Positions 40,192 through 56,942 of a stretch of DNA of 64,000 bases are shown here, one piece after another. The notes under the pieces were generated by a model, which was not told where the DNA came from, made no database searches, and was given only the letters and a program-made list of their open reading frames with translations. Position 1 is the first letter of the stretch; each line of letters opens with the position of its first letter. The position numbers and the translations under genes were made by a program. Origin of the DNA: an uncultured Gemmiger sp. (GTDB lineage: Bacteria > Bacillota > Clostridia > Oscillospirales > Ruminococcaceae); contig CALXAH010000002.1 of NCBI GenBank assembly GCA_944386225.1, positions 124,001-188,000 of the forward strand, read 5' to 3'.

Positions 40192-43188
40192 TTAGTCCAG
40201 GCCGGCAAATCCCAGCGCCAGCACAAAGCGGAACCGTTCCTCCGCCAGGGCGTACCGCGGATCCAGAACCGGGCCGCAGCTGTTGGAGCCAATGCCGCTG
40301 TTCTTGTAGTCCAGGCAGAGTTCCACATCCGGCGCCCGTTCCAGTTCAAAATTGTGGGCCGCCGCCATCAGTGCCTCCTGCGAATAGTGGGAGGCCCGGA
40401 AGCTGAAAGGCGCATCGGAAGCCGCCCAGAGAGCCGCGTCCTCCCCGTTCAGCCGCACCGCCGTACACCCCGTGTGGCTGCCGTGTTCCTGGGGCTTGAT
40501 GTAGTCCACATACTCCGCGTCCACCGTGCTGTCAAATGCCCCGTACCAACTGGCCTGGTGCTTGTCCAGATAGCTTTCGCCGGGACCGTAGCCGGTGTAG
40601 GACAGCCCCTCGAAACCCGCCGGCAAAAACAGCCGAACGCCGAACCGGGGCAGGTAGGGGAACAGGGGGTCGCGTTTTCCCTCCACCGTCAGCCGCAGCC
40701 CGCCGCGGGCGTCGATCCGCCAGCACACCGCGCAGCGCAAAAACGGCTGCCGGATACTGGCCGCGAACACCACATCACAGACGATCTCGGCGCCGCCGTC
40801 CGCCGCGCGGGCGATGTCGCACCGGGCCAGACGCAGCTGTGCCCGGTCGTAGCCGGCCTGTTCCCAGACGCGGCGGATCTTGCGGTCGTTGTCGGTGGGG
40901 GCGCGCCAGACATTGAAGCCCATCGGGCGGCTCAGCCGTTCCCGCCCGCCCCACGCAAGGCTCTTGAAACAGCCGGTGAACCGGTCGAACACATACTCGA
41001 ACCCTTCGCCGGTGATCCGGATCGTCTCGTCGGTCTCCGCCCAGTCCACCGGGCCCGCGCAGGGTTCCGGCAGCGCCGGCGCTGCCGCCTGCAGGGGGAT
41101 CTCGTCAAAGCCCATCTCCTCCCCCGCCCGCATAAAGCCAGCATCCCGGGCGGCCAGCCAGACCAGCCGCAGGTCCCAGCGGCCCGGCGCACAAGGTTGC
41201 GGGCAGGGCAGCGGCATCGCGGCGGTGCCCCGTGGCGGCAGCGGAGGCAGTTCCGCTTCGCCGCCGGCGGTCAGCACCCCATCCCGGCGCAATTCCCACC
41301 GCAGCCGCACCAGGCGGGACGCGTCGGTGAAGTCCAGGGTATTGCGCAGCCGGATCACCCCGTCGGACCAATCGGCCCGCACCGGCCGCCAGACGTTCTT
41401 CAGTTCCCGCAGACCGGGGTGCGGTTTGCGGTCGGGCGAGACCAGACCGTCCACACAGAAGTTCAGGTCGTGGGGGAACTCGCCGCTGTCGCCGCCGTAC
41501 AGATACTTCCGCCCCCCGCCGGGCGCGGGGCCTGCGTCGATGGCATGGTCGCACCACTCCCACACAAAGCCGCCCAGCACGCCGGGCTGCTCCAGCATCA
41601 TGGTCTCGTAGTCCTCCAGATCGCCGGGACCGTTGCCCATGGCGTGGCAGTATTCCACCAGCAGGAAAGGTTTGATATTGGCCGGATCGGCCAGCCAGCG
41701 GCGCACAAAGTCCGGCGGGGTATACATCCTGCTGAACAGATGCAGCATGCTGTCATCGTTCACATGGCCGCCGGTCTGCCGCCAGGCCCCCTCAAAATGC
41801 ACCAGCCGGGTGGGGTCGTATTCCCGCACCCAGCAGCCCGCCTTTTCAAAGCCGGGCCCGTAGCCGGACTCGTTGCCCAGCGACCAGATCAGCACCGACG
41901 GGCTGTTTTTGTCCCGGATCACGCAGCGGCGCACCCGGTCCAGGATCAGGGGTTCAAAGGCCGGGTCCTGGGCGATCAGGCCGTAGGTGATCTCGTCGCC
42001 TCCGCCAAACAGTTCGGTCACCCCGTGGCATTCCACATCCGCCTCATCGATCAGATAGAAGCCGTACCGGTCGCACAGCTGCGCAAACCAGGGCGCGTTG
42101 GGATAATGGCTGGTGCGGATCGCGTTGATGTTGTGCCGTTTCATCAGGGCCAGGTCCCGCAGCGCCTGTTCCGGCGAGATGGCGAAACCGGTGACCGGGT
42201 CGGAATCGTGGCGGTTCACCCCCCGCAGCCGCAGCGGCCGGCCGTTGAGCAGCACCTGCCGCCCCTGCACCGCGATATCCCGCACCCCCACCGGCAGGCT
42301 GATGGTCTCCTCGCCGGCGCGCAGTTCCAGCCGGTAGAGGGCCGGGGTCTCGGCGGTCCAGAACCGGGGCGCATCCAGCGGAATGGTCAGATCGTTTGTG
42401 GCCTTGCCCTGTGCCGCGGGGGCTCCGTCCGGATCCCACAGCTGCCATTCCAGGGCCCCGGCGCCGCCGGTCCACTCCACCCCGACCTGGATCACCGCTT
42501 TGGTATACCCCTCGCAGCCCCAGGTGCGCACCCCGATATCCCGGATATGCTGCGCGGGCCGCGCCAGCAGATACACGTCCCGGAAGATGCCGGACATGCG
42601 GAACTTGTCCTGACATTCCAGATAGGTGCCCACGCTCCACTTGAGCACCAGCACCGCCAGCAGATTCTCCCCGGGATGCACAAAGGCGGTGATATCGAAC
42701 TCGCTGGTGGAGTGGGAGACCTGGCTGTATCCCACCCGCTGCCCGTTGACCCAGACGTAGTAAAAGCTGTCTACCCCCTCAAAGTTCAGATAGAGCCGCC
42801 CGCCGCAAAGGTCCGCGTCCAGGGAAAAGCGGGTGCGATAGGCGCCGCAGGGGTTCTGGTGGGGCACAAAGGGCGGATCGTACGGGATGGGATACCGCAC
42901 GTTGCTGTACTGGTTTTTGTCCAGCCCCTGCATCTGCCAGCAGGAGGGCACCGGCATGGGGGAAAACTCCCGGTCGTCAAACTCCGGCCGGCAGAACTCC
43001 TCCGGCACGGCGCTGATCCGGTCGTACAGCTTCATCCGCCAGCTTCCGCTGAGCAGGACGAATCGCTCCGAGGTCTCCCGCGCGGCGGCTGCATCCTGCC
43101 CGGGAGCAAAGGGAATGTAGTAGGCGCGGTCCGGCTCCACCCCTTCGTGAAGCCGGGTCCAGTCCTCAAATTCATGGTGATGCCGCAT
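40192..43188 (-). CDS. lacZ: GH2 beta-galactosidase, intracellular
   Basis: A 998-residue LacZ-type glycoside hydrolase family 2 enzyme releasing terminal beta-linked galactose. The N-terminal sugar-binding domain contains PSCWQMQGLDKNQYSNVRYPIPYDPP, then LNFEGVDSFYYVWVNGQRVGYSQVSHSTSEFDIT. The barrel has LRGVNRHDSDPVTG, NAIRTSHYPN, the acid/base E440 (LGNESGYG) and nucleophile E512 (VEYCHAMGNG). The C-terminal Bgal_small_N domain ends the protein. No signal peptide. ATG at 43188 follows AAGGAGAACGCC. It is the last gene of the fucose operon, separated from fucI by a 79-bp spacer with a strong hairpin. Confidence 0.94.
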   Translation of the reverse strand: MRHHHEFEDWTRLHEGVEPDRAYYIPFAPGQDAAAARETSERFVLLSGSWRMKLYDRISAVPEEFCRPEFDDREFSPMPVPSCWQMQGLDKNQYSNVRYPIPYDPPFVPHQNPCGAYRTRFSLDADLCGGRLYLNFEGVDSFYYVWVNGQRVGYSQVSHSTSEFDITAFVHPGENLLAVLVLKWSVGTYLECQDKFRMSGIFRDVYLLARPAQHIRDIGVRTWGCEGYTKAVIQVGVEWTGGAGALEWQLWDPDGAPAAQGKATNDLTIPLDAPRFWTAETPALYRLELRAGEETISLPVGVRDIAVQGRQVLLNGRPLRLRGVNRHDSDPVTGFAISPEQALRDLALMKRHNINAIRTSHYPNAPWFAQLCDRYGFYLIDEADVECHGVTELFGGGDEITYGLIAQDPAFEPLILDRVRRCVIRDKNSPSVLIWSLGNESGYGPGFEKAGCWVREYDPTRLVHFEGAWRQTGGHVNDDSMLHLFSRMYTPPDFVRRWLADPANIKPFLLVEYCHAMGNGPGDLEDYETMMLEQPGVLGGFVWEWCDHAIDAGPAPGGGRKYLYGGDSGEFPHDLNFCVDGLVSPDRKPHPGLRELKNVWRPVRADWSDGVIRLRNTLDFTDASRLVRLRWELRRDGVLTAGGEAELPPLPPRGTAAMPLPCPQPCAPGRWDLRLVWLAARDAGFMRAGEEMGFDEIPLQAAAPALPEPCAGPVDWAETDETIRITGEGFEYVFDRFTGCFKSLAWGGRERLSRPMGFNVWRAPTDNDRKIRRVWEQAGYDRAQLRLARCDIARAADGGAEIVCDVVFAASIRQPFLRCAVCWRIDARGGLRLTVEGKRDPLFPYLPRFGVRLFLPAGFEGLSYTGYGPGESYLDKHQASWYGAFDSTVDAEYVDYIKPQEHGSHTGCTAVRLNGEDAALWAASDAPFSFRASHYSQEALMAAAHNFELERAPDVELCLDYKNSGIGSNSCGPVLDPRYALAEERFRFVLALGFAGLD

Positions 43189-43216
43189 GGCGTTCTCCTT
43201 TCGCACCGCAAGGCGC

Positions 43217-43243
43217 GGGCCGGGGCGGTATCCGCCCCGGCCC
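43217..43243 (-). other. Perfect GC-rich hairpin between fucI and lacZ
   Basis: GGGCCGGGGCGG and CCGCCCCGGCCC form a perfect 12-bp stem with a TAT loop and no T-tract. It could stabilise the upstream message or lower lacZ expression within the operon (inference). Confidence 0.75.
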
Positions 43244-43267
43244 TGGTCCTTGCGTCTGGTATTGAGA

Positions 43268-45052
43268 TTATCGGTAGAGCGGGCCGTAATGCTTGCAGGC
43301 GGCAAAGTCCGCGGCCTCGGTGTCCTGCGTGCCGAAAGCAGCCCAGGCGTGGGGCCGGTAGAGGGCCTCGTTTGGAAGGTTGTGCAGCGCCACCGGGATG
43401 CGCAGCATCGAGGCCAGGGTGACCAGATCCGCCCCCACATGGCCGTAGACGGTGACACCGTGGTTGGCGCCCCAGTTGGCCATGACGCTGTATACATCCC
43501 GGAACGCCCCCTTGCCGGTGAGCCGGGGCACAAACCAGGTGGTCGGCCAGGTGGGATCGGTGCGCTTGTCGATGGGGGTATGCACCTCGTCCGGCAGATG
43601 GGCGGTCCAGCCTTCGGCCAGCTGCAGCACCGGGCCTACCCCCTCCACGATGTTCACCCGCAGCAGGGTCACCGGCATCTCGGCGGCACAGCGGAAGTGG
43701 CTGGAGAATCCGCCGCCCCGGAAGTATTCGTAGTTGGCGCGGCACCAGTCGGTAGCCGCCAGGCAGGCGTTCACGTCCCGGTCGGTCATCTCCCAGAAGG
43801 GCTTCATCGCGGGCTCGCCCTTGTCGTTGACGGCCGCGCCGCTGCCGTCCAGCGCGGTGGCGCCGGAGTTGATAAGATGGATGAAGCCGTCCTTCGCCAC
43901 GCCGGTGGGCTTGTGGCCGGCGACCCGCTCGCAGGCCTCGGGGCTCCAGTAGGTGCGCACGTCGTGGAAACAGGGCGCGGTGCCGGTGACCAGGGTGCCC
44001 AGCAGCATCGCCACCCCGTTGAGGGTGTCGTTCTCGGTGGCGAAGGGGGTGGGATGTTTGGGGCCGTTCCAGTCAAAGGTACTGGCCAGGATCGCCTCGC
44101 TGAAGTCCGCGTTGGGCAGCCAGTCGGTCCAGTTGCGCTGGCCCTGGAAGCCGCCGGCCACGGCGTTTTTGCCCAGCGCCTCCTCGTGCCAGCCCATCTC
44201 GTCCAGCTTCGGATTGCCGTACAGAATATCCCGCATGACCATGGTCATCTTGGTGACGAACTCCCAGTCCTTGTCGGCGGGCACCACCTTGGACCGGGTG
44301 ATCACCGGCGGCAGATCCTTGCCGGCGTTGCAGTCATAGCCCTCCTTGCAGTTGGCCTTGACCCAGGCCAGGGCCCGGTCGTACTCCTCGTGGTCGTAAA
44401 TTTCCAGGGTGATGCGGCGCAGGATCTCGGTCATATCCACCCACTCGGGCCGGATGCCCAGATATTTCTGGAACATGGCCGCGTCGCAGTAGCTGCCGGC
44501 GATGCCCATGGCCACGCCGCCCAGGTTGACGTAGGCCTTGTTCTTCATCCAGCCCACCGCCACGGCGCAGCGGGCAAACCGCAGGATCTTCTCGGCCGCG
44601 TCGGCGGGCACGCTGGTGTCGGCGGCGTCCTGCACGTCATGGCCGTAGATGGAGAAGGCAGGCAGCCCCTTCTGGGCGTGGGCGGCCAGCACCGCGGCCA
44701 GATAGACAGCCCCCGGGCGCTCGGTGCCGTTGAAGCCCCATACCGCCTTGATGGTGCGGGGATCCATGTCGAAGGTCTCGCTGCCATAGCACCAGCAGCG
44801 GGTGACGGTCAGGGTGGCCACCACGTTTTCGGTGGTGAACTTGTCGGCGCAGGCGGCGGCCTCGGCCCCGCCGCCGATGGTGGAGTCCGCGATCACGCAC
44901 TGAACGGGGGTGCCGTCCGGATAGCGCAGGTTTTCCTCGATCAGGGCCTTCGCGTTGCGGGCCATGGCCATGGTCTGTTCTTCCAGGCTCTCCCGCACGC
45001 CGCCCCAGCGGCCGTCGATGGTGGGTCGGATCCCGATTTTTGGATAGAGCAT
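43268..45052 (-). CDS. fucI: L-fucose isomerase
   Basis: FucI interconverts L-fucose and L-fuculose, the first step of fucose catabolism, with a Mn2+ site. The 594-residue size is standard. The start [24 protein letters not shown] is characteristic, with [35 protein letters not shown] and [10 protein letters not shown] following. The metal-site Glu and Asp are expected near the middle, for example around [16 protein letters not shown], with the His toward the C terminus. AAGGAGG lies 7 bases before the ATG. It stands 12 bp after the kinase gene. Confidence 0.96.
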
Positions 45053-45064: not shown

Positions 45065-46489
45065 TTATTGCAGTTGTTGTCTGAATCGGGCGATGGCTTC
45101 CTTCCATCCCTCCCGCCCGGCCGGTTCGTATCGTTTGAGCGGCTCGGTGCGCGCGATGAGCGCGCGGCCTTGCTCGATGCTTTCCACCTCGCCCAGGGCC
45201 ACAAGCTGGATCAGGATGTTGCCCAGCGCGGTGGCCTCCACCGGCCCGGCGATCACAGGGATGCCGGTGCAGTCGGCGGTCATGCGGCAGAGCAGGCCGT
45301 CCTTTGCGCCGCCGCCCAGCACATGCAGCACCGAAAACTGCCGGCCGGTGAGCCGGCGCAGCTGGTCCAGCGCCGCATCGTATTTGAGGGCCAGGCTTTC
45401 GTAGATGCAGCGCATCACCTGCCCCACCGTTTCCGGCACCGGCTGGCCGGTGCGCCGGCAGAATTCCCGCACCCGGCCCGGGATATCCCCCGGCGGGGTG
45501 AACTCCGGCGCGTCCGGGTCGATAAAGCTGCGCAGGGGCTCGGCAGCCAGGGCCAGCTGTTCCAGTTCGGCGTAGGAATACTCCCGCCCTTCGCGCCGCC
45601 ACTGGCGGCGGCTCTCCTGGATCAGCCACAGGCCGATAATGTTCTTCAGGTAGTTCACCTTTCCATTGGCCCCTCGCTCGTTGGACAGAGCGGCCAGCCG
45701 GCTTTCCCGGGTCAGGATCGGCTGGTCCAGTTCGCAGCCCAGCAAACTCCAGGTGCCGCAGGAGAGGAACGCTGCGTCCGGGTCGATGCAGGGCATGGCG
45801 GCCACCGCGCACTGGGTGTCGTGGCCGGCCACCGCGATGACCTTCGCGCCCCGGTATTCCCCTATCACCGTACCGCTCTCCACCCGGGGGGCGAACAGGG
45901 TTTCCGGGATATCGAACGCCGCCAGCACCTGCCGGCTCCATGCGCCGGTGCGCGGATCCAGCATCTGGCTGGTGGAGGCAATGGTCGTCTCGCACACGCT
46001 CGCCCCGCACAGGGCACAGGCGAACAGATCCGGCATAAACAGCAGCCGCCGGGCGCGGGCCCAGGTCTCCGGCTCGCCTTTTCGGACCGCCAGCAGCTGA
46101 AACAGGGTGTTGATGGGCATGATCTGGCTGCCGGTGGCGGCGTAGAGCGCGTCCGCGTCCAGCCGGTCGCAGGCCGCCTCCACCATGCCGGCGGTGCGGC
46201 CGTCCCGGTAGTGGACCGGGTCTGCCAGCAGCTTGCCCGTCTGGTCCAGCAGGCCGAAGTCCACCCCCCAGGTGTCAAAGCCCACGCTGTCAAAAGCGCC
46301 CGCCTGTTCGACGCCCCGCTGTACGTTCTGCATCAGATCAGAGAAATCCCAGCGAAGATGCCCGGCCTGTTCCCGGGGGCGGTTTTCAAAGCGGTGTACC
46401 TCCCGGCAAATCAGGCGACCGCCGTCATATTCCGCCAGGATGGCCCGGCCGCTGGACGCGCCGAAGTCAAACGCCAGAACTCGTTTCAT
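45065..46489 (-). CDS. FGGY-family kinase, rhamnulokinase-like, probably L-fuculokinase
   Basis: A 474-residue sugar kinase of the FGGY family. The phosphate-1 motif LAFDFGASSGRAIL opens the protein. FDTWGVDFGLLD is the substrate loop typical of rhamnulokinases, and AVAGHDTQCAVAAMP and LSCGTWSLLG follow, then the second FGGY domain with HVLGGGAKDGLLCRMTADCTGIPVIAGPVEATALGN. By sequence it resembles RhaB more than E. coli FucK, but it lies between fucI and fucA and no rhamnose isomerase is present. L-fuculose is therefore the likely substrate, as in gut Firmicutes and Bacteroides. ATG at 46489 follows AAGGAGAG. Confidence 0.88.
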   Translation of the reverse strand: MKRVLAFDFGASSGRAILAEYDGGRLICREVHRFENRPREQAGHLRWDFSDLMQNVQRGVEQAGAFDSVGFDTWGVDFGLLDQTGKLLADPVHYRDGRTAGMVEAACDRLDADALYAATGSQIMPINTLFQLLAVRKGEPETWARARRLLFMPDLFACALCGASVCETTIASTSQMLDPRTGAWSRQVLAAFDIPETLFAPRVESGTVIGEYRGAKVIAVAGHDTQCAVAAMPCIDPDAAFLSCGTWSLLGCELDQPILTRESRLAALSNERGANGKVNYLKNIIGLWLIQESRRQWRREGREYSYAELEQLALAAEPLRSFIDPDAPEFTPPGDIPGRVREFCRRTGQPVPETVGQVMRCIYESLALKYDAALDQLRRLTGRQFSVLHVLGGGAKDGLLCRMTADCTGIPVIAGPVEATALGNILIQLVALGEVESIEQGRALIARTEPLKRYEPAGREGWKEAIARFRQQLQ

Positions 46490-46502: not shown

Positions 46503-47192
46503 TCAGCGCAGGCCGTTTTCAAACTTTTTGTAGCCCGGATGCCGCCCGGTGACCCGATAGAATCCCCGCAGATCGATGAGTTTCTGGATGTTCTCCCGGC
46601 TGATGTCCACGCTGCCGCCCAGGATCACCGCGTTGATGGTGATCTTGGCCCAGAGTTCCAGGCTCTCCATCCGATAGAAGGCGGTGATCACATCGCTGCC
46701 CACCGCCAGCGCGCCGTGGTTTTCCAGCAGCATCACGTCGTGTTCTTCCAGATAGGGCTCGATGGCGTCGGGCACCTCCGGGGTGGAGGGAGTACCGTAG
46801 GGGGTCAGGGGTACGCTGCCGATCACCGCCACGTCCTCGATCATGTTGTACATATCCATCGCCTTGTGGGCCACCGCAAAGCCGGTGGCGCCGGGGGGAT
46901 GGGCGTGAAGTACACTGCCCACATCGGGCCGCTTTTCGTAGCAGCGCAGATGCATCTTAATCTCGCTGGAGGGGCGCAGACCCTCCGCGCCCTCCAGTAC
47001 CTGGCCTTTGGCGTCGATTCGCAGCAGTTTGTCCGGCGTGATAAAGCTCTTACTGATGCCGGTGGGGGTACACAGGAAGGTGCCGTCCTCCAGGCGGGCG
47101 GACAGGTTGCCGTCATTGGCGGCCACCCAGCCCAGCTGCCAGGTTTTTTGGCAGACGTCGCACATCTGTTCTTTCAGCGCTTGCAGTTCCAT
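46503..47192 (-). CDS. fucA: L-fuculose-phosphate aldolase (class II)
   Basis: FucA splits L-fuculose 1-phosphate into dihydroxyacetone phosphate and L-lactaldehyde using Zn2+. The 229-residue protein has GNLSARLEDG (about residues 28-37), TPTGISK, the catalytic E77 (SSE), zinc ligands H96 and H98 (HAHPP) and H159 (LLENHGAL). RhaD and AraD are related, but neighbouring FucI supports fuculose 1-phosphate. No lactaldehyde reductase (fucO) or propanediol genes are in the window, so lactaldehyde must be handled elsewhere. The kinase gene starts 13 bp downstream. Confidence 0.93.
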   Translation of the reverse strand: MELQALKEQMCDVCQKTWQLGWVAANDGNLSARLEDGTFLCTPTGISKSFITPDKLLRIDAKGQVLEGAEGLRPSSEIKMHLRCYEKRPDVGSVLHAHPPGATGFAVAHKAMDMYNMIEDVAVIGSVPLTPYGTPSTPEVPDAIEPYLEEHDVMLLENHGALAVGSDVITAFYRMESLELWAKITINAVILGGSVDISRENIQKLIDLRGFYRVTGRHPGYKKFENGLR

Positions 47193-47216: not shown

Positions 47217-48674
47217 TTATTTCTGGTATTTGGGGCTGTCGGCGTAGACCGGCCGCCCCTCGGAATAGATCCCCGGCCGGCGCATCTGGCCAAAGCCGGA
47301 CACCGCTTCCCGGGTGCCGTCCACCGCCGGATCGGCGTAGGTGTGGTACCAGTGTTGCAGCTTTTTTAGAAGCTGCGCCTGAACGTCGGCGTATTCGGGC
47401 CGGCCGGCCAGGTTTTCCCGCTCGCCCGGGTCGTTTGCCAGGCAATACAACTCGTGGGGGCCATAGGGATAACGGTGGATGTATTTCCATTCCCGGTTGC
47501 GGATCATCCGGCTGTTGCCGTACTCGTCCAGAATGACCACGTGGTTGTCGGCCTCGGCGCCGTTCACCAGCACATCGGCAAAGCTGCGGCCCGGCAGGTC
47601 GGCGGGCAGGTCGGCCCCCAGATCCAGCAGCTCGTTCAGGGTCTGGATGATATCATAGTGGCTGCACATGCTGCCGGTCACCCGGCCCGCCCGGATATGG
47701 CCGGGCCAGCGGGCGATGAAGGGCACCTTGACCGCTGTGTCGAACAGGTTGAAGGGGAAGGTGCCGTTGCCCTTGCCCCAGATGCCGTGGTGCCCCATGT
47801 TCATGCCGTTGTCGGCGGTGAAGATCACCAGGGTGTTCTCCGCCAGGCCCAGCGCTTCCAGCCGGTCCAGCAGCCTGCCCACCCCCGCGTCCATGGCGCT
47901 GATCGCCGCATAATAGCCCCGCAGCAGCCGTTTACGCTCCTCGCCGGTGCCGCCGGGGGCGGTGGGGATGCGGTTGGGATGCAGCGGCTCGTCCGGGGTG
48001 GCGGTAAAGGCGCAGTCCCGGTACAGGTCGATGTACTCCTTCGGGTGCTGGTCCTCGTCCCAGGGGTCGTGGGGCGCGGTATAGTGCACGCTGATGTAGA
48101 AGGGCTCCTCCCGGCCGGAAAACTCGTCCAGATACCCCAGGGCCCGCTCGGTGATGAGATCGGTGATATACCGGCTTTCAAAATGCAGCTGTCCGTCCTC
48201 GATCACGTCCGCCTGGTTGTACAGGCAGCCGCCCCGCCCGATGGTGTACCAGTGGGAAAACCCGTGCTGGGGATGCAGGCTGTCCCCCAGGTGCCATTTG
48301 CCGCTGAGGGCACAGGTATAGCCCTTTTGCGCCAGCAGATCCGGATAGGTGAGGAGCCCTTCCAGATACCGGATGGGCAGGTCCTCACTGGCGAAATAGG
48401 GATGGTCCGCGTGCTCGCCCAGCGCCTTTTTGTCCAGGCTTCCGCTGCGAATCCAGTCGTGGACCCCATGCTGGGAGGGGATGCGGCCGGTCAGGATGGA
48501 GGCGCGGGCCGGGCTGCACACCGGCGAAGCGCAGAAAAAGTTTTCAAAGCGGGTGCCCTGGGCCGCCAGCCGGTCCAGATGGGGGGTGTGAAGATCGGTG
48601 TTGCCGGCACAGCGCATGGCCCAGGCGCCTTGATCGTCGGTCAGGATAAAGAGCAGATTCGGTCGTTGGTTCAT
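47217..48674 (-). CDS. Cys-type sulfatase, intracellular
   Basis: A 485-residue alkaline-phosphatase-superfamily sulfatase. The N terminus NLLFILTDDQGAWAMRCAG has the metal aspartates D13 and D14. The modification motif is CSPARASILTGR with C53, to be converted to formylglycine by a radical-SAM anSME in anaerobes. SGKWHLGDSLHPQHGF (LSGKWHLG) and FTADNGMNMGHHGIWGKG carry further active-site residues. There is no signal peptide, unlike most Bacteroides carbohydrate sulfatases. Lying upstream of fucA it probably desulfates an imported sugar such as sulfated fucose, galactose or GlcNAc; the exact target is unknown. No maturase gene is in the window. Confidence 0.92.
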   Translation of the reverse strand: MNQRPNLLFILTDDQGAWAMRCAGNTDLHTPHLDRLAAQGTRFENFFCASPVCSPARASILTGRIPSQHGVHDWIRSGSLDKKALGEHADHPYFASEDLPIRYLEGLLTYPDLLAQKGYTCALSGKWHLGDSLHPQHGFSHWYTIGRGGCLYNQADVIEDGQLHFESRYITDLITERALGYLDEFSGREEPFYISVHYTAPHDPWDEDQHPKEYIDLYRDCAFTATPDEPLHPNRIPTAPGGTGEERKRLLRGYYAAISAMDAGVGRLLDRLEALGLAENTLVIFTADNGMNMGHHGIWGKGNGTFPFNLFDTAVKVPFIARWPGHIRAGRVTGSMCSHYDIIQTLNELLDLGADLPADLPGRSFADVLVNGAEADNHVVILDEYGNSRMIRNREWKYIHRYPYGPHELYCLANDPGERENLAGRPEYADVQAQLLKKLQHWYHTYADPAVDGTREAVSGFGQMRRPGIYSEGRPVYADSPKYQK

Positions 48675-48764: not shown

Positions 48765-50324
48765 TCAGCCGGCCGCGTTGAACTGGCTCAACTGGTTGCT
48801 CACCTCGGTCACCAGGGCTTCAGCGCCATTGGCGTTCAGCGCATCCAAGAACTGAGGGATGTACTCGGCGGGATCCACCGAGCCGGTCTCCAGGGAGGGA
48901 GCGTACTCGCTGATCACGTTGGTCAGGGCCGCCACCTGGGTCTCCACCGGCACCGCGTCAAAGGTAAAGCCGTTGTTGGGCGAGATGATCGCGGAGTCGT
49001 TGTATTCCTGGAACAGTTCCTCGATGTTGTCGGGATAGCTGATATCCCACTTCTGGTTGAAGGGGGTGCCGAACTGCCAGCCGTAGGTGTAGTCGTAGCC
49101 GTTTTCGGTCAGGGTGCCGCCCATGGTCTTGTCCACCTGGTTATCGCCCACCGCGGTGTAGTGCTGGCCCTCGATGCCGTGACGGATCAGGGTGCCCACA
49201 TACTCGTCGGTGTTCAGCAGGTTGATGAACTCCAGCGCCTTCTCGGGATACTCACTGGCGGAGGAGATGGCCAGCAGGCCGCCCATGGCGCTGCGGGTCT
49301 CAAACAGGGGATCCATCAGGGGCAGGAAGCCCACGCCGTGGCCGCTGGACGCAGTCATGGACTCGGCGGTGCCGGGAGCGTACTGGATGAAGTAGGAGAA
49401 CAGAGCGCCGTTGTTGAAGTCGTTGTCCCGGTTGGCGGTGTCGCTGTCGTAGTTGACCGGGTCGCCGCCCAGGTAACCGGCCTGGTTCCAGCCGCGCACG
49501 GTGGTGCAGTAGTTCATGTACTCCTCGCTGGCGTACTGGTTGAACACGGTCTGGCCGGCCATGTCGGCAAAGTTGTTGAACTCGGCCACCGCGCCCGCCG
49601 CGGGCAGTTTCGGGTTACCGGTGAGAGACTCATAGGGCGCGGCCATGGGCCAGGCGTTGGTCAAACCGGAAACGCCCACCACATCCTTGCCTTCGGCCTT
49701 GCTCTTCTCGGCCACGGTCGCCAGGACCTGGGTGTAATCCTCCAGGGTCTTGACTGCGGTCATGTCGATGCCGTAGGCCTCGGCCATATCGCTGTTGTAC
49801 ACGATGCCGCCCTGCCAGCCCATCTCCTTATAGGAGGGCACACCATAGATGGCGCCGTTCACCTTGACGGCGTTCCACTCGGCCTCGGGGATGAAGTCCC
49901 AGGTCTCCTTGGCGTACTGGGGCAGCAGTTCGGTGATATCCATGAAGGCGTCCTTGCCCACGAACTGCAGATAGTCGGTGGTCCAGTTGGAGGTAAAGCA
50001 GATGTCGAAGTATTCGCCCGCATTGATCAGGTTGGGCATCTTCTCCTTGTAGTCCGGGTTGGCCATGACCTTGTAGTCGATCTCCACGCCGATCTTCTCC
50101 CGGGTATACTCATTCAGCGCCTCGATGACCTTGTCGGTATCGGCGGCCACCGGGTTGATGGACATGTACCAGGTCAACGTGGTGATCTCCTGGCCGGCGG
50201 AAGATCCGGAACCGGCCGTGGAGCCGGCGGTGGAATTGCCATTGCCGCCGCAGCCCGCCAGCATGCCGGCCGCCAGAGCGGCAGCGGCGCCCAGCGCCAT
50301 GACTCGTTTGATCGTATTTTTCAT
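48765..50324 (-). CDS. Lipoprotein sugar-binding component of an Lpl-type ABC transporter
   Basis: A 519-residue extracellular solute-binding protein (family 1, LplA/YtcQ-like). The signal peptide MKNTIKRVMALGAAAALAAGMLAGC ends in a lipobox (LAGC, cysteine about residue 25), followed by a Gly/Ser/Asn linker. The mature part (TTLTWYMSINPVAADTDKVIEALNEYTREKIGVEIDY...) fits large oligosaccharide-binding proteins with a C-terminal DUF3502-like region (about 390-519). It should hold the glycan at the membrane surface for the two permeases upstream. Strong GGAGG ribosome-binding site. The ligand is inferred from the neighbouring fucosidase, galactosidase and sulfatase. Confidence 0.92.
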   Translation of the reverse strand: MKNTIKRVMALGAAAALAAGMLAGCGGNGNSTAGSTAGSGSSAGQEITTLTWYMSINPVAADTDKVIEALNEYTREKIGVEIDYKVMANPDYKEKMPNLINAGEYFDICFTSNWTTDYLQFVGKDAFMDITELLPQYAKETWDFIPEAEWNAVKVNGAIYGVPSYKEMGWQGGIVYNSDMAEAYGIDMTAVKTLEDYTQVLATVAEKSKAEGKDVVGVSGLTNAWPMAAPYESLTGNPKLPAAGAVAEFNNFADMAGQTVFNQYASEEYMNYCTTVRGWNQAGYLGGDPVNYDSDTANRDNDFNNGALFSYFIQYAPGTAESMTASSGHGVGFLPLMDPLFETRSAMGGLLAISSASEYPEKALEFINLLNTDEYVGTLIRHGIEGQHYTAVGDNQVDKTMGGTLTENGYDYTYGWQFGTPFNQKWDISYPDNIEELFQEYNDSAIISPNNGFTFDAVPVETQVAALTNVISEYAPSLETGSVDPAEYIPQFLDALNANGAEALVTEVSNQLSQFNAAG

Positions 50325-50393: not shown

Positions 50394-51329
50394 TCAGCCC
50401 TTGACGCCGCCCACCGTCAGGCCCTTGACAAAATATTTCTGGAAGAAGGGATAGGCCAGCAGAATGGGCAGCACCACCAGCACGGTCAGCGCCATGCGGC
50501 CGCTGTCGGTGGGGGCGTTGGCCGCCATCTCGGCGTATTCCAGGGCGTTGGCCGAGGACTGTTTCATAAACTCCAGACTGTTCTGCATGCTCCACAGCAG
50601 GGTCTGTACCGGATATTTTTTCTGATCGATGATGTAGAGCATCCCCAAAAACCAGTCGTTCCAGTAGGCGATGGTGGTAAACATGCCGATGGTGGCCAGG
50701 CCAGGTTTGGACAGGGGCATCACGATGCGGAAGAAGGTCTTGAACTCTCCCGCGCCGTCAATGCGGGCCGCCTCAATGATCTCGAGGGGGATCCCCTTGT
50801 AGAAGGTGCGCAGCACGATCACGTAAAAGGCGTTCAGCGACATGGGGAAGATCAGCGCGCCCAGGCTGTCGCCCAGACCCAACAGCTGGGTGTTGACCAT
50901 ATAGGTGGCCACGATGCCGCCGTTGAACAGCATGGTGAAGAGCATCAGCAGGGTGAACAGCCGGTTGTAAGCGTAGTCGGCCCGGCTGAGCACATAGGCA
51001 AACATGGCGGTGATGGCCAGGCTGAACAGGGTGCCTGCCACCGTGACGAAGATGGTGATGCCATAGGAGCGTACCAGCTGGTCGCCCAGGCGGAAGAAGA
51101 AACGGTAGGCGTCCAGGCTCCACTCGCTGGGGAAAAAGCTGTAGCCGTTCTGGAAGATGCTCTGCTCGCTGCTGAAGGACACGATGACCACCAGGATCAG
51201 CGGCAGCACGCAGGCCAGCGTCCAGATCAGGAAAATCAGGTTGAGGATCCGGTCGGTGGTTTTGGAGATCCGGTTGATCGCCAGATCGCCCTCGCCCTCG
51301 TCCCGGAAACGGTTTTTGAATTTGCGCAT
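50394..51329 (-). CDS. ABC sugar transporter permease, LplC/YtcP type
   Basis: A 311-residue inner-membrane permease with six helices (first about residues 28-50). The EAA loop that contacts the ATPase is EAARIDGAGEFKTFFRIVMPLSKPGL (about residues 209-234). The C-terminal PILLAYPFFQKYFVKGLTVGGVKG is typical of this CUT1 subfamily. Lies 18 bp after the other permease gene with a GGAGGGAG ribosome-binding site. No ATPase gene is in the operon; such systems usually share an MsmX/MsmK-type ATPase encoded elsewhere. Confidence 0.93.
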   Translation of the reverse strand: MRKFKNRFRDEGEGDLAINRISKTTDRILNLIFLIWTLACVLPLILVVIVSFSSEQSIFQNGYSFFPSEWSLDAYRFFFRLGDQLVRSYGITIFVTVAGTLFSLAITAMFAYVLSRADYAYNRLFTLLMLFTMLFNGGIVATYMVNTQLLGLGDSLGALIFPMSLNAFYVIVLRTFYKGIPLEIIEAARIDGAGEFKTFFRIVMPLSKPGLATIGMFTTIAYWNDWFLGMLYIIDQKKYPVQTLLWSMQNSLEFMKQSSANALEYAEMAANAPTDSGRMALTVLVVLPILLAYPFFQKYFVKGLTVGGVKG

Positions 51330-51347: not shown

Positions 51348-52301
51348 TCAGAACAGGGCGCTGTCCGGCTCAATGCGGCGCACCACCAGGTTGGCGCCCA
51401 CCACCAGCACGAAGCCCACCACCGACTGGTACAGGCTGGCCGCGGCGGCCATGCCCACGTTGCCGGTCTCTTTCAGAGCCCGGTACACATAGGTATCGAT
51501 CACCTGGGTGACCGGATACAGCGGGCCGGAATCCCGGGGAAGCTGGAAGAACAGGCCGAAATCGGCGTAGAAGATGCGGCCGATCGCCAGGATGGTCAGC
51601 ACGATCATCATCGGCTTCAGGCAGGGAAGGGTGATCCGGCGGATCTGCTGCCATTTGGTGGCGCCGTCGATGATGGCCGCCTCATAATAGTCGTTGGAGA
51701 TGCCGGTCAGGGTGCTGATGTACATCACGGTGGAGTACCCCACGGTTTTCCACAGCTGGAAGAAGGTCAGGATAAAGGGCCATTTGCCCGGCTCAGCGTA
51801 CCAGTTGACCCCGGAGAATCCGAAATAGTTCAGCAGATGATTAAATAAGCCGTCGTCCACGCTGAACAGGGAGAAGGCCATGAAGGAGACCACGACCCAG
51901 GACAGAAAATACGGCGCCATGAAGATGGTCTGGTACACCTTGGCCCGCCGCTTGCGCAGCAGTTCGCTCAGGCCGATCGCCATGGCCACCGCCATCACCA
52001 GATCCAATGCGATGAAAAAAGCGTTGTACAGGATGGTGTTGCGGGTGATAACCCAGGCGTCGGAGGTCTTGAACAGGAATTCAAAGTTCTGCCAGGCCAC
52101 CCAGTCGCTGCCGAAGATCCCCTTGCGCACGCTGAACCGTTTGAAGGCCAGCAGCAAGCCGGACATGGGCAGATACCGGAACAGGAACATCACCACCAGC
52201 GCCGGCAACGCCATGATCGTAAGTGGCAGGTTTTTTTGAAAGGTCTTGACAAACCCCGCTTTTCTGCACACGGTATTGGTGTGCCGGGCGGACTGTTTCA
52301 T
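51348..52301 (-). CDS. ABC sugar transporter permease, LplB type
   Basis: A 317-residue inner-membrane permease, first gene of the operon. The start KNLPLTIMALPALVVMFLFRYLPMSGLLLAFKRFS is typical of LplB-like CUT1 permeases. The EAA loop is EAAIIDGATKWQQIRRITLPCLKPMM (about residues 206-231), followed by two more helices. LplB pairs with LplC to carry complex oligosaccharides such as those taken up by YtcQP/YteP and Lpl systems. A GGAGGAG ribosome-binding site precedes the ATG. Confidence 0.93.
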   Translation of the reverse strand: MKQSARHTNTVCRKAGFVKTFQKNLPLTIMALPALVVMFLFRYLPMSGLLLAFKRFSVRKGIFGSDWVAWQNFEFLFKTSDAWVITRNTILYNAFFIALDLVMAVAMAIGLSELLRKRRAKVYQTIFMAPYFLSWVVVSFMAFSLFSVDDGLFNHLLNYFGFSGVNWYAEPGKWPFILTFFQLWKTVGYSTVMYISTLTGISNDYYEAAIIDGATKWQQIRRITLPCLKPMMIVLTILAIGRIFYADFGLFFQLPRDSGPLYPVTQVIDTYVYRALKETGNVGMAAAASLYQSVVGFVLVVGANLVVRRIEPDSALF

Positions 52302-52354
52302 GCTGTGCTCCTCCTCGCTGTGGCGTTTCGCGGCCGGATTTTTGTTCTGGGTTC

Positions 52355-52384: not shown

Positions 52385-52392
52385 CGCTACAA

Positions 52393-52413
52393 TTTTTAAG
52401 TGGGGTGCACTTT
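52393..52413 (-). promoter_or_regulatory. Candidate YesN-type regulator site at the operon promoter
   Basis: On the minus strand this element has a TGCACC core flanked by A-tracts and contains the 5-5-5 dyad AAGTG/CACTT. It matches the fucosidase element (55478-55498) at 14 of 21 positions. Its end is exactly 32 bp from the -10 box in both cases. Assignment to the neighbouring response regulator is inference. Confidence 0.6.
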
Positions 52414-52456
52414 TTTTAGATACGCGGTCCTGCCTGCTGCGGCCCCGCGAAAAATG

Positions 52457-52465
52457 TGGTATACT
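52457..52465 (+). promoter_or_regulatory. Extended -10 promoter of the two-component system
   Basis: TGG directly before TATACT (52460-52465) gives an extended -10. No good -35 is seen, which fits an extended -10 promoter. It is divergent from the transporter operon promoter. Confidence 0.55.
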
Positions 52466-52523
52466 GGTGGCCAAACGGCGACCATCGCCCAAATACCTGC
52501 TATGCGGAAAGGAGCAACGCCCC

Positions 52524-53597
52524 ATGAAGGTTCTGCTTGTCGATGACGATCCCCTGGCGCTGAAAGGGATCCAGCGCATGCTGCACTGGGAATCTTTCGG
52601 CGGCGAACTGGCCGGATGCGCCGCCAGCGGCGAGGAGGCGCTTGCCCTGCTGGAAGCCACCCATCCCGACGTGGTGATCTCGGATATCCGGATGCCCGGA
52701 CTGGACGGATTGGATCTGGCCCGGCATATCCACGAACACTTTCCTTATACCCGGATGATCCTGATCAGCGGCCACGGGGAATTCAGCTACGCCCAGCAGG
52801 CCCTGCAATATCAGGTGACCGACTATCTGCTCAAGCCTATTACCCGGGCCAAGCTGAACAGCCTGGAGGAACGTCTGGCCGCCATTCAGAAGGAGCTCAC
52901 CGCCGACGTGCCGCCCTGGTACGCCTGCGACGAGGAACTGCGCAACCGGGTGGGCCAGGCGCTGCGCAAGGGGGACATGGCCGCCATCGGGGAACTGCTG
53001 ATCCAGCCTGACGTGTTCCGCGCGCTGTGCAGCCGGCGGGATGTGCTGGGCATCCAGCTGCTGAACTATCTGTTTGTGTACCAGGAGGAGCTGGGCAAGG
53101 ACCGGGATTCGCTGGACGCGCTGCGCCAGGAGGCCATGTCGGAATACTGGGCTTTAAGCACCGCCGGCGAGCGCCGGGCCTACCTGGCAGCGCGCTATTA
53201 CGATCTCATGGAATATGCCGAAGAGCAAAAGAACGAGTATACCAGCCCGATCGTGCGGTTCTGTTTGCAGTCCATTGAGGAAAACTTTTCCGACTCCAAC
53301 TTCAATATCTCCAACCTGGCCGACACGCTGCATCTCTCCCTGTCCTATTTGAGCACCGTGTTCAAAAACGCCACCGGTCAGAACGTGAGCAACTACCTCT
53401 CCGCCCGGCGGCTGCGGCAGTCCCAGAAGCTGCTGCGGGACCCCTCGATCCCCATTCGCCAGGTCTGCTTTTTGTGCGGGTACGACGATCCCCGCTATTT
53501 TGCCAAGCTGTTCAAAAAACACATTGGTATGACCCCCAGTGAATTCCGCAATCTGTATGCGGCGGGCGGCTATCCCACGGCGGAGGACACCCCATGA
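52524..53597 (+). CDS. YesN-like AraC-type response regulator
   Basis: A 357-residue transcription factor. The receiver domain (residues 1-120) has acidic residues D8-D10, phosphorylated D54 (VVISDIRMPG) and K104 (LLKP). A helical linker (about 125-245) leads to the AraC/XylS DNA-binding domain (about 255-350) with two HTHs: NISNLADTLHLSLSYLSTVFKNATGQNVSNYL and IPIRQVCFLCGYDDPRYFAKLFKKHIGMTPSEFR. YesN-type regulators activate adjacent sugar operons after phosphorylation by YesM. It overlaps the kinase by 4 bp. Likely targets are the divergent transporter operon and the downstream fucosidase. Confidence 0.94.
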   Translation: MKVLLVDDDPLALKGIQRMLHWESFGGELAGCAASGEEALALLEATHPDVVISDIRMPGLDGLDLARHIHEHFPYTRMILISGHGEFSYAQQALQYQVTDYLLKPITRAKLNSLEERLAAIQKELTADVPPWYACDEELRNRVGQALRKGDMAAIGELLIQPDVFRALCSRRDVLGIQLLNYLFVYQEELGKDRDSLDALRQEAMSEYWALSTAGERRAYLAARYYDLMEYAEEQKNEYTSPIVRFCLQSIEENFSDSNFNISNLADTLHLSLSYLSTVFKNATGQNVSNYLSARRLRQSQKLLRDPSIPIRQVCFLCGYDDPRYFAKLFKKHIGMTPSEFRNLYAAGGYPTAEDTP

Positions 53598-55381
53598 GCA
53601 TCACCCGACGTACCTTTTTGAGCATCTGCGGGCTGTTCTGCCTGGTGCTGCTGGCGCTGAACACCGCCACCTATCTGCTGTTTCAATACGCCATCACCCG
53701 GCAGCTGATCACCTCGCAGGCGGCCATAGCGGAAGCCAATGTACAGCTGAGTTCCGTTTTCACCCAAACCACCGACAAGCTGATCTACCGATATACCAGC
53801 GACACGGAACTGGGCGAACTGTTGAGCCGTGCGGTGGGGCGTGACGAACTGGAAGATCTGAGCACCAAGTATCTGCTCAACAGCCGGCTGACCTATCACC
53901 TGAACGCGGAAAACCTGCTTTTGAACAACGGGTTTCGGATGGAATTGTACCTGGACCCGGCCTTGCCGGTGAGCCAGCTGTTCACACCTGGCAACACCAT
54001 CCCCAACGTGAGCCGCGTGTTCAGCGGCGAAGCGGTCGCGCAGGAGGACTGGTATCAGGTGGTGCGGGCAAACAATGGGCGGCTCATTTTCCTCAACGAG
54101 GACCAGACCCGGCTGTGTTTTGCCACCAAGCTGCAAAACAGCACCTACACCGGGGTCCACCGCAAAGAGGGGATCGGCGTGCTGCTGGGCAGCCTGCCGC
54201 TGGACCGGTTACCTCACCTGCTCTCTCTCTTTCCCATCACCGAGAACAGCGGATTCTTGCTGTTGAACGGGCAGGGCCAACAGGTGTTCTGTTCCGAAGA
54301 TCTGGCCGGGTTGCCGGCCGCGGATGACCTGTCTGTTCCGGATGCCGCCAGCAGCGAGCTGACCCTGGGCGGGCAGCAATTTCTCTGTACCCCGGCCCGG
54401 CTGGACTGGGGGCTGCAGCTGGTTTTCCTGACCCCCTACTCCGATGTTGCCCGTCAGGTATGGGGCATGATGTTCCCCTATCTGGTCTGTTCGGCGGTAT
54501 TTCTGGTGTTGGGGGTGCTGGTCTCGCTGGGGCTCTCCGCCCAGGTGTCCCGGCCGGTGGTGCGCTTTACCCGCAAACTGGAGGCCATCCAGGATACCCG
54601 CAGCGTCAGCGTCGAGAATTTCGCGCCCCGGGGTCCCCGGGAGATCCGCCAGCTGAACCGCAGTTTCGGCGCGCTGATCGGCCGGGTCAACGCGCTGATC
54701 GAGGAGGTCACCCGCAAGGAGGACCAGCGCCGGGAGAGCGAGCTGCGGGCCCTTCAGGCTCAGATCAACCCGCATTTTATGCTCAACGCCATGAACGCCG
54801 TGAACTACATGGCGCTGGCCCGGGGCGAAGACGACATCGCCGCCACGGTGGATTCGATTGCCAACCTGATGCGGTACAGCATCACCGAACCGGACCGGCT
54901 GGTGACCATGAGTACTGAACTGGACAACATCCGGGAATATATCGCGGTGTATGTGCTGCGGTTCCGTCAGGATATCCGGCTGGAGATGCTGCCGGGGCTG
55001 GACGCGTCCCAGGTGGTCATCCCGAAATTCACCCTGCAGCCCCTTGTGGAGAATTCGATCCGGCACGGCATCACCCGGCAGGATCCGGGCATCGTGATCC
55101 GCATCCAGGCGCGGGAAACCGACACCGGCATTTGCATTGAGGTGACCGATACCGGCCGCGGCGCCGACGCCCGGCTGCTCAACGATTATCTGGAGTACCG
55201 GGATGTGGACCTGAAGGTGACCCATGGTTTCGGCATCCGCAACGTAAACGAGCGGTTGCAGCTGCGGTTCGGGCCCGGCTGTCATCTGCGGTACGCAAAC
55301 TATGACGGCCGCCGGCTGCTGGCCCGGCTCACCCTGCCCAAATCCCCTGGCCCGGCCAAAGAGGCCCTGTCCGACAGCTGA
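53594..55381 (+). CDS. YesM-like sensor histidine kinase
   Basis: A 595-residue membrane kinase. One helix at about residues 8-30 and another at about 293-317 enclose an extracellular sensor of about 260 residues. HAMP-like sequence follows, then the His_kinase domain with ALQAQINPHFMLNAMNAVNYM; the phospho-His is in NPHF, where most relatives have NPHFLYN, so MLN is a small variation. The HATPase part has the N box LVENSIRHG and G box DTGRGAD...HGFGIRNVNERL. It probably senses the glycan or the loaded binding protein outside and phosphorylates the YesN-like regulator. ATGA overlap with the regulator gene. Confidence 0.94.
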   Translation: MSITRRTFLSICGLFCLVLLALNTATYLLFQYAITRQLITSQAAIAEANVQLSSVFTQTTDKLIYRYTSDTELGELLSRAVGRDELEDLSTKYLLNSRLTYHLNAENLLLNNGFRMELYLDPALPVSQLFTPGNTIPNVSRVFSGEAVAQEDWYQVVRANNGRLIFLNEDQTRLCFATKLQNSTYTGVHRKEGIGVLLGSLPLDRLPHLLSLFPITENSGFLLLNGQGQQVFCSEDLAGLPAADDLSVPDAASSELTLGGQQFLCTPARLDWGLQLVFLTPYSDVARQVWGMMFPYLVCSAVFLVLGVLVSLGLSAQVSRPVVRFTRKLEAIQDTRSVSVENFAPRGPREIRQLNRSFGALIGRVNALIEEVTRKEDQRRESELRALQAQINPHFMLNAMNAVNYMALARGEDDIAATVDSIANLMRYSITEPDRLVTMSTELDNIREYIAVYVLRFRQDIRLEMLPGLDASQVVIPKFTLQPLVENSIRHGITRQDPGIVIRIQARETDTGICIEVTDTGRGADARLLNDYLEYRDVDLKVTHGFGIRNVNERLQLRFGPGCHLRYANYDGRRLLARLTLPKSPGPAKEALSDS

Positions 55382-55420
55382 ACGTCTCATTCCAGATGCC
55401 GTTTTTCCCGCTCTGCGATA

Positions 55421-55460
55421 CGCCTGTCTTGCCGCTGCGGCAAGGCAGGCGTTTTGTTTT
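55421..55460 (+). terminator. Terminator of the two-component operon
   Basis: CGCCTGTCTTGCCGC and GCGGCAAGGCAGGCG form a 15-bp stem (one G-U pair), followed by TTTTGTTTT. Confidence 0.85.
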
Positions 55461-55477
55461 GCCAGGGCCGCCGCAAA

Positions 55478-55498
55478 AAATTGCACCGGATGCAAAAG
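55478..55498 (+). promoter_or_regulatory. Candidate YesN-type regulator site at the fucosidase promoter
   Basis: A TGCACC core in A-rich flanks, containing the 5-5-5 dyad TTGCA/TGCAA. It matches the element at 52393-52413 at 14 of 21 positions and ends exactly 32 bp before TATAGT (55531-55536), the same spacing as at the operon promoter. Confidence 0.6.
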
Positions 55499-55507
55499 AT
55501 TTCCCCC

Positions 55508-55536
55508 TTTGCGGCGGCGGGCTTCTTCCGTATAGT
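55508..55536 (+). promoter_or_regulatory. Promoter of the alpha-L-fucosidase gene
   Basis: TATAGT (55531-55536) is preceded at 17 bp by the poor -35 TTTGCG (55508-55513). A weak -35 fits dependence on an activator bound just upstream. Confidence 0.6.
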
Positions 55537-55580
55537 AGAAGTAAGGCAATCACTACCCGCACGAAAGGAATCCAACCGCC

Positions 55581-56942
55581 ATGAAACAAGCGATCGTCGC
55601 CAACGGCGTACACAATTACACCCCGCCAGAAGAGTATATCCCGCCCCGTTCAGCCCAGGTACAGGAACACCTGGCATGGTTCATGGGGCTCAAACTAGGC
55701 TTCATGATGCACTGGGCCCCCGGCAGCCAGCTGGGCACCTACGAGAGCTGGCCGCTGAGCGACGGAGACGCCGTCTGGAGCCAGGAGGACTTCACCTGGG
55801 CCGATTCCGAGACCTGCAAGCGTCAATACCGGGAGGCCAATCGCACCTTCAACCCGGTCAAGTTCAACCCGGCCGCCTGGGCAAAGCTGGCCCGGGAATG
55901 TGGGTTCAAATATCTGCTGTTCACCACCAAGCACCACGACGGGTTCTGCATGTACGACACCCGGACCACCGACTACAGGATCACCGCACCGGACTGCCCG
56001 TTCCATACCCATCCCGACGCGGATGTGGTGGGGGCGCTGTACCGGGAATTCCGCAAACAGGGCCTGGCCATCTCCACCTACTTTTCCAAGCCCGACTGGA
56101 ACAGCCCCTTCTACTGGGCGCCCCAGTTCGGCCCCGCCCCCACCCGCAACGTAAACTATGATGTGCACCAGCATCCGGAATTGTGGGAGCAGTATGTGCA
56201 GTTCACCCACCAGCAGATTCGGGAGCTGTGCACCAACTATGGTCAGATCGACGTGCTCTGGCTGGACGGCGGCTGGGTGAGGCCGGACAATCTGGGGCAG
56301 GACATCCGGCTGGGTGAGATCGTGGAGGAACTGCGCGCCGGTCCTCAGCCCCAGATGATCGTCTGCGAGCGGACCTGCGGCGGCGAATACGAGAACTTCA
56401 TCACCCCCGAAAAAACCGTGCCGGATACCGCGCTGACAGTGCCCTGGGAGACCTGCACAACTGTGGGGGAGAAATTCTCCTTCCATTACACCGACCATTT
56501 CAAAAGCGGCCGGGAACTGGTGCATCTGCTGCTGGATGTGGTGAGCAAGGGCGGCAATCTGGCGCTGAATCTGGCGCCCCAGCCCGACGGCGAACTGCCC
56601 GCCCCCGCGGTGCGCTCACTGCGGGAGATGGGCGCCTGGCTGACCCTGTTTGGCGAGGGGATCTACGGCACCCGCATCTGCGCCCCCTACTTTGAGGACC
56701 GGTTGTTCTACACCCAAAAAGAGGGAGAGATCTTTGTTTTCTTCCGCTACGACGAACTTCCCCGGCTGCCGGACCGGCTGACCCTGCATCTTGACCGTCC
56801 GGTGCGGCAGGCGTATTGTATGCGCACCGGCGAGGCGCTGCATTTTCGTGCCGGTGACGATGGCCTGACGCTGGACCTGCGGCAGTTGCCCATGGGCGGT
56901 GCCTTCTATGCCGAGGGGTTCCGGCTGACCCTGGCCGACTGA
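55581..56942 (+). CDS. GH29 alpha-L-fucosidase, intracellular
   Basis: A 453-residue retaining alpha-L-fucosidase. Substrate-site features are KLGFMMHWAPGSQLGTYESWPL, the His-His pair in LLFTTKHHDGFCMYDT and the nucleophile D229 in QIDVLWLDGGW. SKGGNLALNLAPQPDG marks the end of the barrel, followed by a beta-sandwich tail. No signal peptide, so it acts on imported fucosides. Released fucose would enter FucI, the kinase and FucA encoded in the divergent operon. It has its own promoter with a regulator element shared with that operon. The linkage (alpha-1,2, 1,3/4 or 1,6) cannot be told from sequence alone. Confidence 0.93.
   Translation: MKQAIVANGVHNYTPPEEYIPPRSAQVQEHLAWFMGLKLGFMMHWAPGSQLGTYESWPLSDGDAVWSQEDFTWADSETCKRQYREANRTFNPVKFNPAAWAKLARECGFKYLLFTTKHHDGFCMYDTRTTDYRITAPDCPFHTHPDADVVGALYREFRKQGLAISTYFSKPDWNSPFYWAPQFGPAPTRNVNYDVHQHPELWEQYVQFTHQQIRELCTNYGQIDVLWLDGGWVRPDNLGQDIRLGEIVEELRAGPQPQMIVCERTCGGEYENFITPEKTVPDTALTVPWETCTTVGEKFSFHYTDHFKSGRELVHLLLDVVSKGGNLALNLAPQPDGELPAPAVRSLREMGAWLTLFGEGIYGTRICAPYFEDRLFYTQKEGEIFVFFRYDELPRLPDRLTLHLDRPVRQAYCMRTGEALHFRAGDDGLTLDLRQLPMGGAFYAEGFRLTLAD

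Follow-up and report, generated by a model that had tools for sequence, protein, structure and literature searches.

Gene content of the locus

We analysed a stretch of 64,000 nucleotides (hereafter the window) from the genome of an uncultured Gemmiger sp. (GCA_944386225.1, CALXAH010000002.1:124,001-188,000, forward strand). Gemmiger is placed in the Oscillospiraceae (Bacillota), and the genome amounts to 3.38 Mb in 77 contigs, of which the window covers C2:124001-188000 (G+C 63%). Our subject is a cluster of genes for sugar import, desulfation, defucosylation and fucose catabolism at positions 40192-56942, to which an initial annotation had drawn attention. Profile searches recovered every gene that it had named within this interval, with some of the starts refined:

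40192..43188, minus strand: GH2 beta-galactosidase, LacZ type (Pfam GH2 domains and Bgal_small_N; below NCBIfam cut-offs)
43268..45052, minus strand: FucI, L-fucose isomerase (NF008220, 1003.6 bits for a cut-off of 775; TIGR01089, 946.6 for a cut-off of 850)
45065..46489, minus strand: FGGY kinase, most likely L-fuculokinase (start at the first ATG of the frame)
46503..47192, minus strand: class II aldolase (PF00596, E 4.4e-49)
47217..48674, minus strand: Cys-type S1 sulfatase, predicted cytoplasmic (PF00884, 164.8 bits for a cut-off of 25; ATG start, M-N-Q-R-P-N)
48765..50324, minus strand: DUF3502-type lipoprotein solute-binding protein (PF12010; lipobox L-A-G-C)
50394..51329, minus strand: ATP-binding cassette (ABC) permease 2 (PF00528)
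51348..52301, minus strand: ABC permease 1 (PF00528)
52524..53597 (refined start), plus strand: YesN-type response regulator with AraC-type DNA-binding domain (PF00072, PF12833)
53594..55381, plus strand: YesM-type membrane histidine kinase (PF06580, PF02518; a PF02743 dCache match lies below its cut-off)
55420..55452, plus strand: terminator-like hairpin in the gap between yesM and the GH29 gene (15 pairs, 10 of them G-C, T-rich tail)
55581..56942, plus strand: GH29 alpha-L-fucosidase (Pfam Alpha_L_fucos, 261.9 bits; the sole PF01120 match in the genome)

The minus-strand genes, from permease 1 through GH2, are separated by gaps of 12-90 bp when the GH2 and kinase starts are taken one codon shorter, and yesN and yesM overlap by 4 bp. 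The refined GH2 start is an ATG with a ribosome-binding-like site, the listed open reading frame of 1113 residues being an upstream extension of it. Since the hairpin separates yesM from the GH29 gene, the latter may form its own transcription unit; the terminator scan as a whole was near chance (15 found, 12.7 expected). A promoter scan did no better than chance, with 4 candidates where 3.3 were expected, and Rfam at the gathering threshold returned only a tRNA in the window. Outside the cluster, the window also encodes a 717-residue DUF5107 protein (30400-32553).

The fucose pathway is anchored by FucI, which is the sole PF07881 match in the genome. The best solved match of the kinase is an L-fuculose kinase (4c23, E 4.6e-105), followed by a rhamnulokinase (2cgj, E 2.5e-96); it falls below the NCBIfam cut-offs for both fuculokinase and rhamnulokinase, and the rhamnulokinase models score higher. 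From these similarities it is most likely an L-fuculokinase of the FucK/RhaB type. The aldolase, encoded between the kinase and the sulfatase, is most likely an L-fuculose-1-phosphate aldolase, a sugar specificity that we assign by similarity and position. The GH29 protein exceeds the cut-off of its family profile, and the Asp of its WLDGG motif, which we take to be the nucleophile, aligns with that of WFD in 6gn6; it is probably a member of subfamily A. The nearest solved protein to the binding protein is NgtS (E 2.4e-30).

S1 sulfatases are matured at the consensus C/S-x-P/A-x-R-x4-T-G, which is present in the window sulfatase as C53-S-P-A-R-x4-T-G (CSPARASILTG from residue 53); its structure model has a pLDDT of 82 and a pTM of 0.89. 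Sequence profiles and the top sequence matches rank the subfamily S1_11 first. The members of S1_11 are sulfatases of 6-sulfated N-acetylglucosamine (GlcNAc) that recognise their substrate by a triad, a His contacting O3 and an Asp/Arg pair contacting O4 (PMC10154612). In a HMMER alignment, 5g2v, 7p24 and 9s03 have G-W-F-D-K-R, the D and R of which we read as this Asp/Arg pair, where the family of the window sulfatase has an invariant G-K-G-N. The top matches thus favour S1_11 but the Asp/Arg pair is missing, and for this reason we did not accept the assignment. S1_25 and S1_16 were weighed as further candidate subfamilies.

Conservation and spread of the module

Matches to the sulfatase at E 1e-40 or better occur in 18 of 197 family genomes, a set to which the window's own belongs. 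Seven of these genomes, again counting its own, encode a full-length sulfatase with at least 75% identity, and an eighth (G142) has a fragment. The locus of G142 (C26, 8041-12000) holds a full-length GH29 gene together with truncated matches to the sulfatase, the binding protein, a permease and YesM, and has the appearance of a module copy in decay. A scan of named genomes with the sulfatase gave at least 592 matching stretches, of which 507 were confirmed; all locus counts refer to the best 80 loci. Among the matches listed, the closest named relative is an uncultured Gemmiger bin (sulfatase 99% identical), and further relatives are found in Anaerofilum, Gemmiger An50 and An87, Caccousia, Anaeromassilibacillus, several Mediterraneibacter, Lachnoclostridium An76 and a Treponema bin. 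Bird epithets are attached to 6 of the 18 named loci with a sulfatase of at least 70% identity (L084, L087, L091, L097, L098 and L100), and we take the An strains and M. catenae to be chicken isolates.

These 18 named loci (L083-L100) and the window sulfatase form a single clade of 19 rows (SH-aLRT 100) in an 82-row tree built with a quick method, in which two outgroup rows sit on very long branches. Across the family genomes and the best 80 loci, the recurrent core consists of YesM, YesN, the two permeases, the binding protein, the sulfatase and GH29. A GH29 gene lies near the sulfatase in 15 of the 18 clade loci, in 1 of the 4 loci with a sulfatase of 60-70% identity and in 2 of the 58 with one of 50-60%. 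The clade loci also have a binding-protein match of at least 60% identity in 18 of 18 cases (partial in L084 and L096), YesM in 17, permease 1 in 16 and FucI in 7. The constancy of GH29 (15/18) and of the binding protein (18/18) therefore indicates that the gene set is not a chance assembly. As to the three clade loci in which GH29 was not seen, L084 is cut by a contig end, and L085 and L086 may resemble the similar genome G025, where GH29 is found some 6 kb past YesM and so fell outside the stretch retrieved initially. The module permeases were not found beside the sulfatase in L096.

The remaining genes are less constant. A GH2 match of at least 60% identity occurs in 5 of the 18 clade loci, and any GH2 match in 7, so that GH2 is accessory to the module, and FucI, the kinase and FucA are variable along with it; the designation of the substrate as a galactoside in the initial annotation does not extend to the module at large. 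The genes for FucA, the kinase and FucI lie within the operon in Gemmiger-like genomes, and on the opposite strand in L087; in Mediterraneibacter and Treponema they do not adjoin the core. Another genome of the window's genus (G008, L056) carries the core between SerA and RodA without this pathway or GH2, its FucI being on another contig. FucI was found in 14 of the 15 module-bearing genomes checked, the exception being the most distant (that of L101), and in 3 of the 14 control genomes.

We rejected the stronger proposition that GH29 of this type always pairs with a sulfatase. At E 1e-60, GH29 matches occur in 11 of 391 genomes of the class: that of the window and 10 more, in which the identity is 46-55%. 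Near these 10, tblastn gave no sulfatase match in the flanks retrieved, some of which break off at contig ends. Given these unpaired GH29 genes, it is the pairing with a sulfatase that marks the module clade. Within the clade, the module of a Candidatus Treponema excrementipullorum bin (L100) lies on an 11.3-kb contig with 37% G+C and encodes a sulfatase 78% identical to that of the window. Unless this contig was misbinned, its presence in the Treponema bin suggests a transfer of the module between phyla.

Cellular location of the enzymes and functions encoded elsewhere

To assess export, we combined the highest 11-residue hydropathy within the first 32 residues with an inspection of start codons. 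In the module loci (L083-L101, 19 loci), peak hydropathy at the preferred start was 0.75-1.22 for the sulfatases (n=19), -0.46 to 1.05 for GH29 (n=16) and -0.45 to 0.13 for GH2 (n=7), and none showed an export signal. The positive control, 16 binding proteins of the same loci, gave 1.55-2.43, with a lipobox in 15. When in-frame starts up to 60 codons upstream were allowed, the sole value above 1.6 came from the GH29 of L094 (1.75); outside the module loci, 1 of 61 sulfatases (L109) has a hydrophobic upstream stretch. By the same inspection, no hydrophobic leader was seen upstream of the sulfatase, GH29 or GH2 of the window, which led us to reject hidden upstream starts with signal peptides for these three enzymes; a signal peptide like that of the exported Bacteroides-type mucin sulfatases was not seen on the window sulfatase in the hydropathy and start-codon checks. 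The claim that neither the hydrolases nor the sulfatase has a signal peptide is borne out by these checks.

The same tendency extends to the other sulfatases of the genome. There are 16 PF00884 matches, 3 of which have no maturation motif and show the match well away from the N terminus; we read these as LTA-synthase-like. The other 13 are true S1 sulfatases, all of the Cys type, with a start codon 2-8 residues before the matched domain. The possible exception is the sulfatase of contig C28, where a hydrophobic upstream stretch (2.25) can be reached from a GTG 17 codons upstream that has no ribosome-binding-like site. Because these enzymes start at the catalytic strand, the S1 repertoire of the genome looks cytoplasmic on sequence grounds.

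Several of these sulfatases lie in loci of their own. Six Cys-type leaderless sulfatases lie within about 17 kb of contig C16 (23814-40779; L018 and L019), where the surrounding genes encode a YesMN-type pair, a DUF3502 binding protein, GH43, GH3 and a BPD_transp_2 transporter; this is possibly a second, larger locus for internal desulfation. In the C28 region 30239-39343 (L014), some 6 kb separate the sulfatase from an ABC permease and a GH20C-type hexosaminidase, a combination that would suit the processing of a sulfated GlcNAc glycan. Near the end of contig C29 (809-2284; L017) there is a paralogue of the window sulfatase with 55% identity, with no GH29 match in the 12 kb fetched.

The anaerobic sulfatase-maturating enzyme (anSME) belongs to the radical-SAM enzymes and works in the cytosol, in keeping with a sulfatase located there. 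The genome encodes one anSME over the TIGR03942 cut-off, on another contig than the module. In 7 of the 19 module loci, all from Lachnospiraceae (L090-L095 and L098), an anSME adjoins GH29, and the 4 module-adjacent copies tested all pass TIGR03942 and all fall below the stricter NF010321. No anSME was found beside the module in L097 and L099, and L100 ends inside GH29. Each of the 12 genomes searched has one anSME over the cut-off; since four of these hold only an unlinked GH29, the presence of an anSME does not by itself mark the module.

The sole OB_MalK-type ATPase over the cut-off is encoded on contig C34, and we read it as MsmX-like. As the products of the cluster look non-exported except for the lipoprotein, no enzyme of the cluster can free the glycan. 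Genome-wide, the families sought for glycan release were BNR_2 and GH20: the search detected no sialidase of the former, and three weak matches to the latter exceeded the cut-off (27-32 bits). The system can therefore be called complete as regards uptake and degradation within the cell, some parts being shared, but not as regards the release of the glycan, and the ATPase and the maturase are on other contigs.

Proposed function and comparison with known systems

We propose, with a probability of roughly 0.68, that the locus imports a soluble sulfated and fucosylated oligosaccharide intact and dismantles it inside the cell, the likeliest natural substrate being a gut mucin O-glycan, plausibly avian. 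Milk-type glycans, which the initial annotation named beside those of mucin, are likewise a putative substrate. Release of the oligosaccharide would fall to other bacteria, or to enzymes whose genes lie outside the cluster. Extracellular glycan, or a piece of it, is probably the signal for YesM, and YesN would switch on the divergent importer operon, as their families and the gene layout suggest. Captured by the lipoprotein, the oligosaccharide would enter through the two permeases, the power coming presumably from the MsmX-like ATPase. In the cytoplasm, the anSME would generate the formylglycine of the sulfatase from Cys53; the mature enzyme would then strip sulfate and GH29 fucose, in either order, and GH2, where present, galactose. 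Fucose would pass through FucI, the kinase and the aldolase to dihydroxyacetone phosphate and lactaldehyde. In favour of this reading, 34% of chicken caecal O-glycans are sulfated (PMC8521165), and NgtS (5SUO/5SWA) binds Man5GlcNAc of host N-glycans (PMC5215778).

That the substrate is sulfated is made likelier by the synteny of the module and by the anSME beside it in seven relatives. The sulfate might instead sit on L-fucose itself: the cell would import a sulfofucose oligosaccharide, fucan-like or from an unusual host glycan, and GH29 would free the fucose for FucI, the kinase and FucA after desulfation. We regard this as a serious rival, though clearly the less likely reading. The order of fold matches among S1 sulfatases gives little guidance on specificity, and the sequence profiles put S1_11 first; moreover, the cluster has a single GH29 and no exported enzyme, and brown algae are no obvious food of the animals that host the carrier bacteria. 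More improbable still is an operon for fucoside scavenging whose sulfatase acts on another sulfated compound, one that carries no fucose and has the transporter or the regulation in common with the fucosides. Gene clusters can hold unrelated neighbours, and the 50-60% identical relatives of the sulfatase do occur in other contexts, mostly without GH29. The sulfatase and GH29 nevertheless stay paired in Oscillospiraceae, Acutalibacteraceae, Lachnospiraceae and the Treponema bin, and G008 keeps the importer, YesMN, the sulfatase and GH29 in the absence of an adjacent fucose pathway or GH2.

More tentatively, intact import followed by internal dismantling may define a guild that comprises gut Bacillota and one or more spirochaetes and desulfates sulfoglycans wholly inside the cell through a horizontally shared module of importer, anSME-matured sulfatase and GH29. 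Uptake of the mucin oligosaccharides would be selfish, and the sulfatase would have a novel S1 specificity, perhaps for sulfated fucose. Mucin is shielded by its sulfate groups, and the characterised gut sulfatases in a review of the subject are surface or periplasmic enzymes of Bacteroidota (PMC10154612). If our proposal is correct, a portable module of Bacillota that desulfates internally would leave no bare sugars or fucose for the cells around it, and would escape surveys that demand a signal peptide. The module also adds a sulfatase clade to the S1 family.

Earlier reports of sulfatases in related bacteria bear on this. Mucin glycosulfatase activity is listed for the Firmicute Ruminococcus torques (PMC4365749), and sulfatases are on record for Clostridium perfringens (PMC8521165), in both cases with no location in the text available. 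A survey of about 397 human gut genomes (a number derived from its percentages) lists mucin-desulfating GlcNAc-6-sulfatases only in Bacteroidetes and Akkermansia in the available part, and Gemmiger is not named in its main text (PMC5583593). The module was not found in the titles and abstract openings among the matches listed from the openly licensed (CC0, CC BY, CC BY-SA) PubMed Central literature. It corresponds to the definition of a gpPUL as worded in the accessible text of PMC9067506.

The initial annotation had presented import followed by internal desulfation as a distinct strategy. The strategy has precedents. The ats1 and ats2 clusters of Bifidobacterium breve reportedly act on GlcNAc-6-sulfate. 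Like the module, and also in a Gram-positive gut bacterium, they combine a sulfatase, a transport system and a regulator, with the anSME inside the cluster, but the available text mentions neither GH29 nor a fucose pathway (PMC9239261). In Streptobacillus moniliformis, the glycosaminoglycan importer Smon0120-0123 likewise performs ABC import of an intact sulfated oligosaccharide, and desulfation inside the cell has been proposed to follow, with evidence in support; the sulfatase Smon0126 and the hydrolase UGL (Smon0127) are predicted to be cytoplasmic, as in the module, and no sulfatase activity was found outside the cells (PMC5430744). This fusobacterial system differs in acting on chondroitin and hyaluronan disaccharides by a lyase and GH88 route, and no fucosidase or fucose pathway is described in the portion available (PMC5430744). 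The NgtS-P1-P2 system of Streptococcus pneumoniae shares with the module a related binding protein, two permeases and the intracellular depolymerisation of a host glycan fragment, but its substrate is a mannose-rich N-glycan, and the accessible text describes no sulfatase or fucosidase (PMC5215778). The mucin and glycosaminoglycan S1 sulfatases of Bacteroides thetaiotaomicron also work on host glycans together with glycosidases, but they are surface or periplasmic enzymes, mostly by signal-peptide prediction, and belong to the polysaccharide utilisation loci of Bacteroidota (PMC10154612). The contrast that had been drawn with these enzymes stands, as does the description of the system, in a member of the Bacillota, as intracellular and directed at a fucosylated and probably sulfated glycan. 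What sets the module apart from these systems is the combination of a sulfatase with GH29 and fucose catabolism, spread through gut Bacillota.

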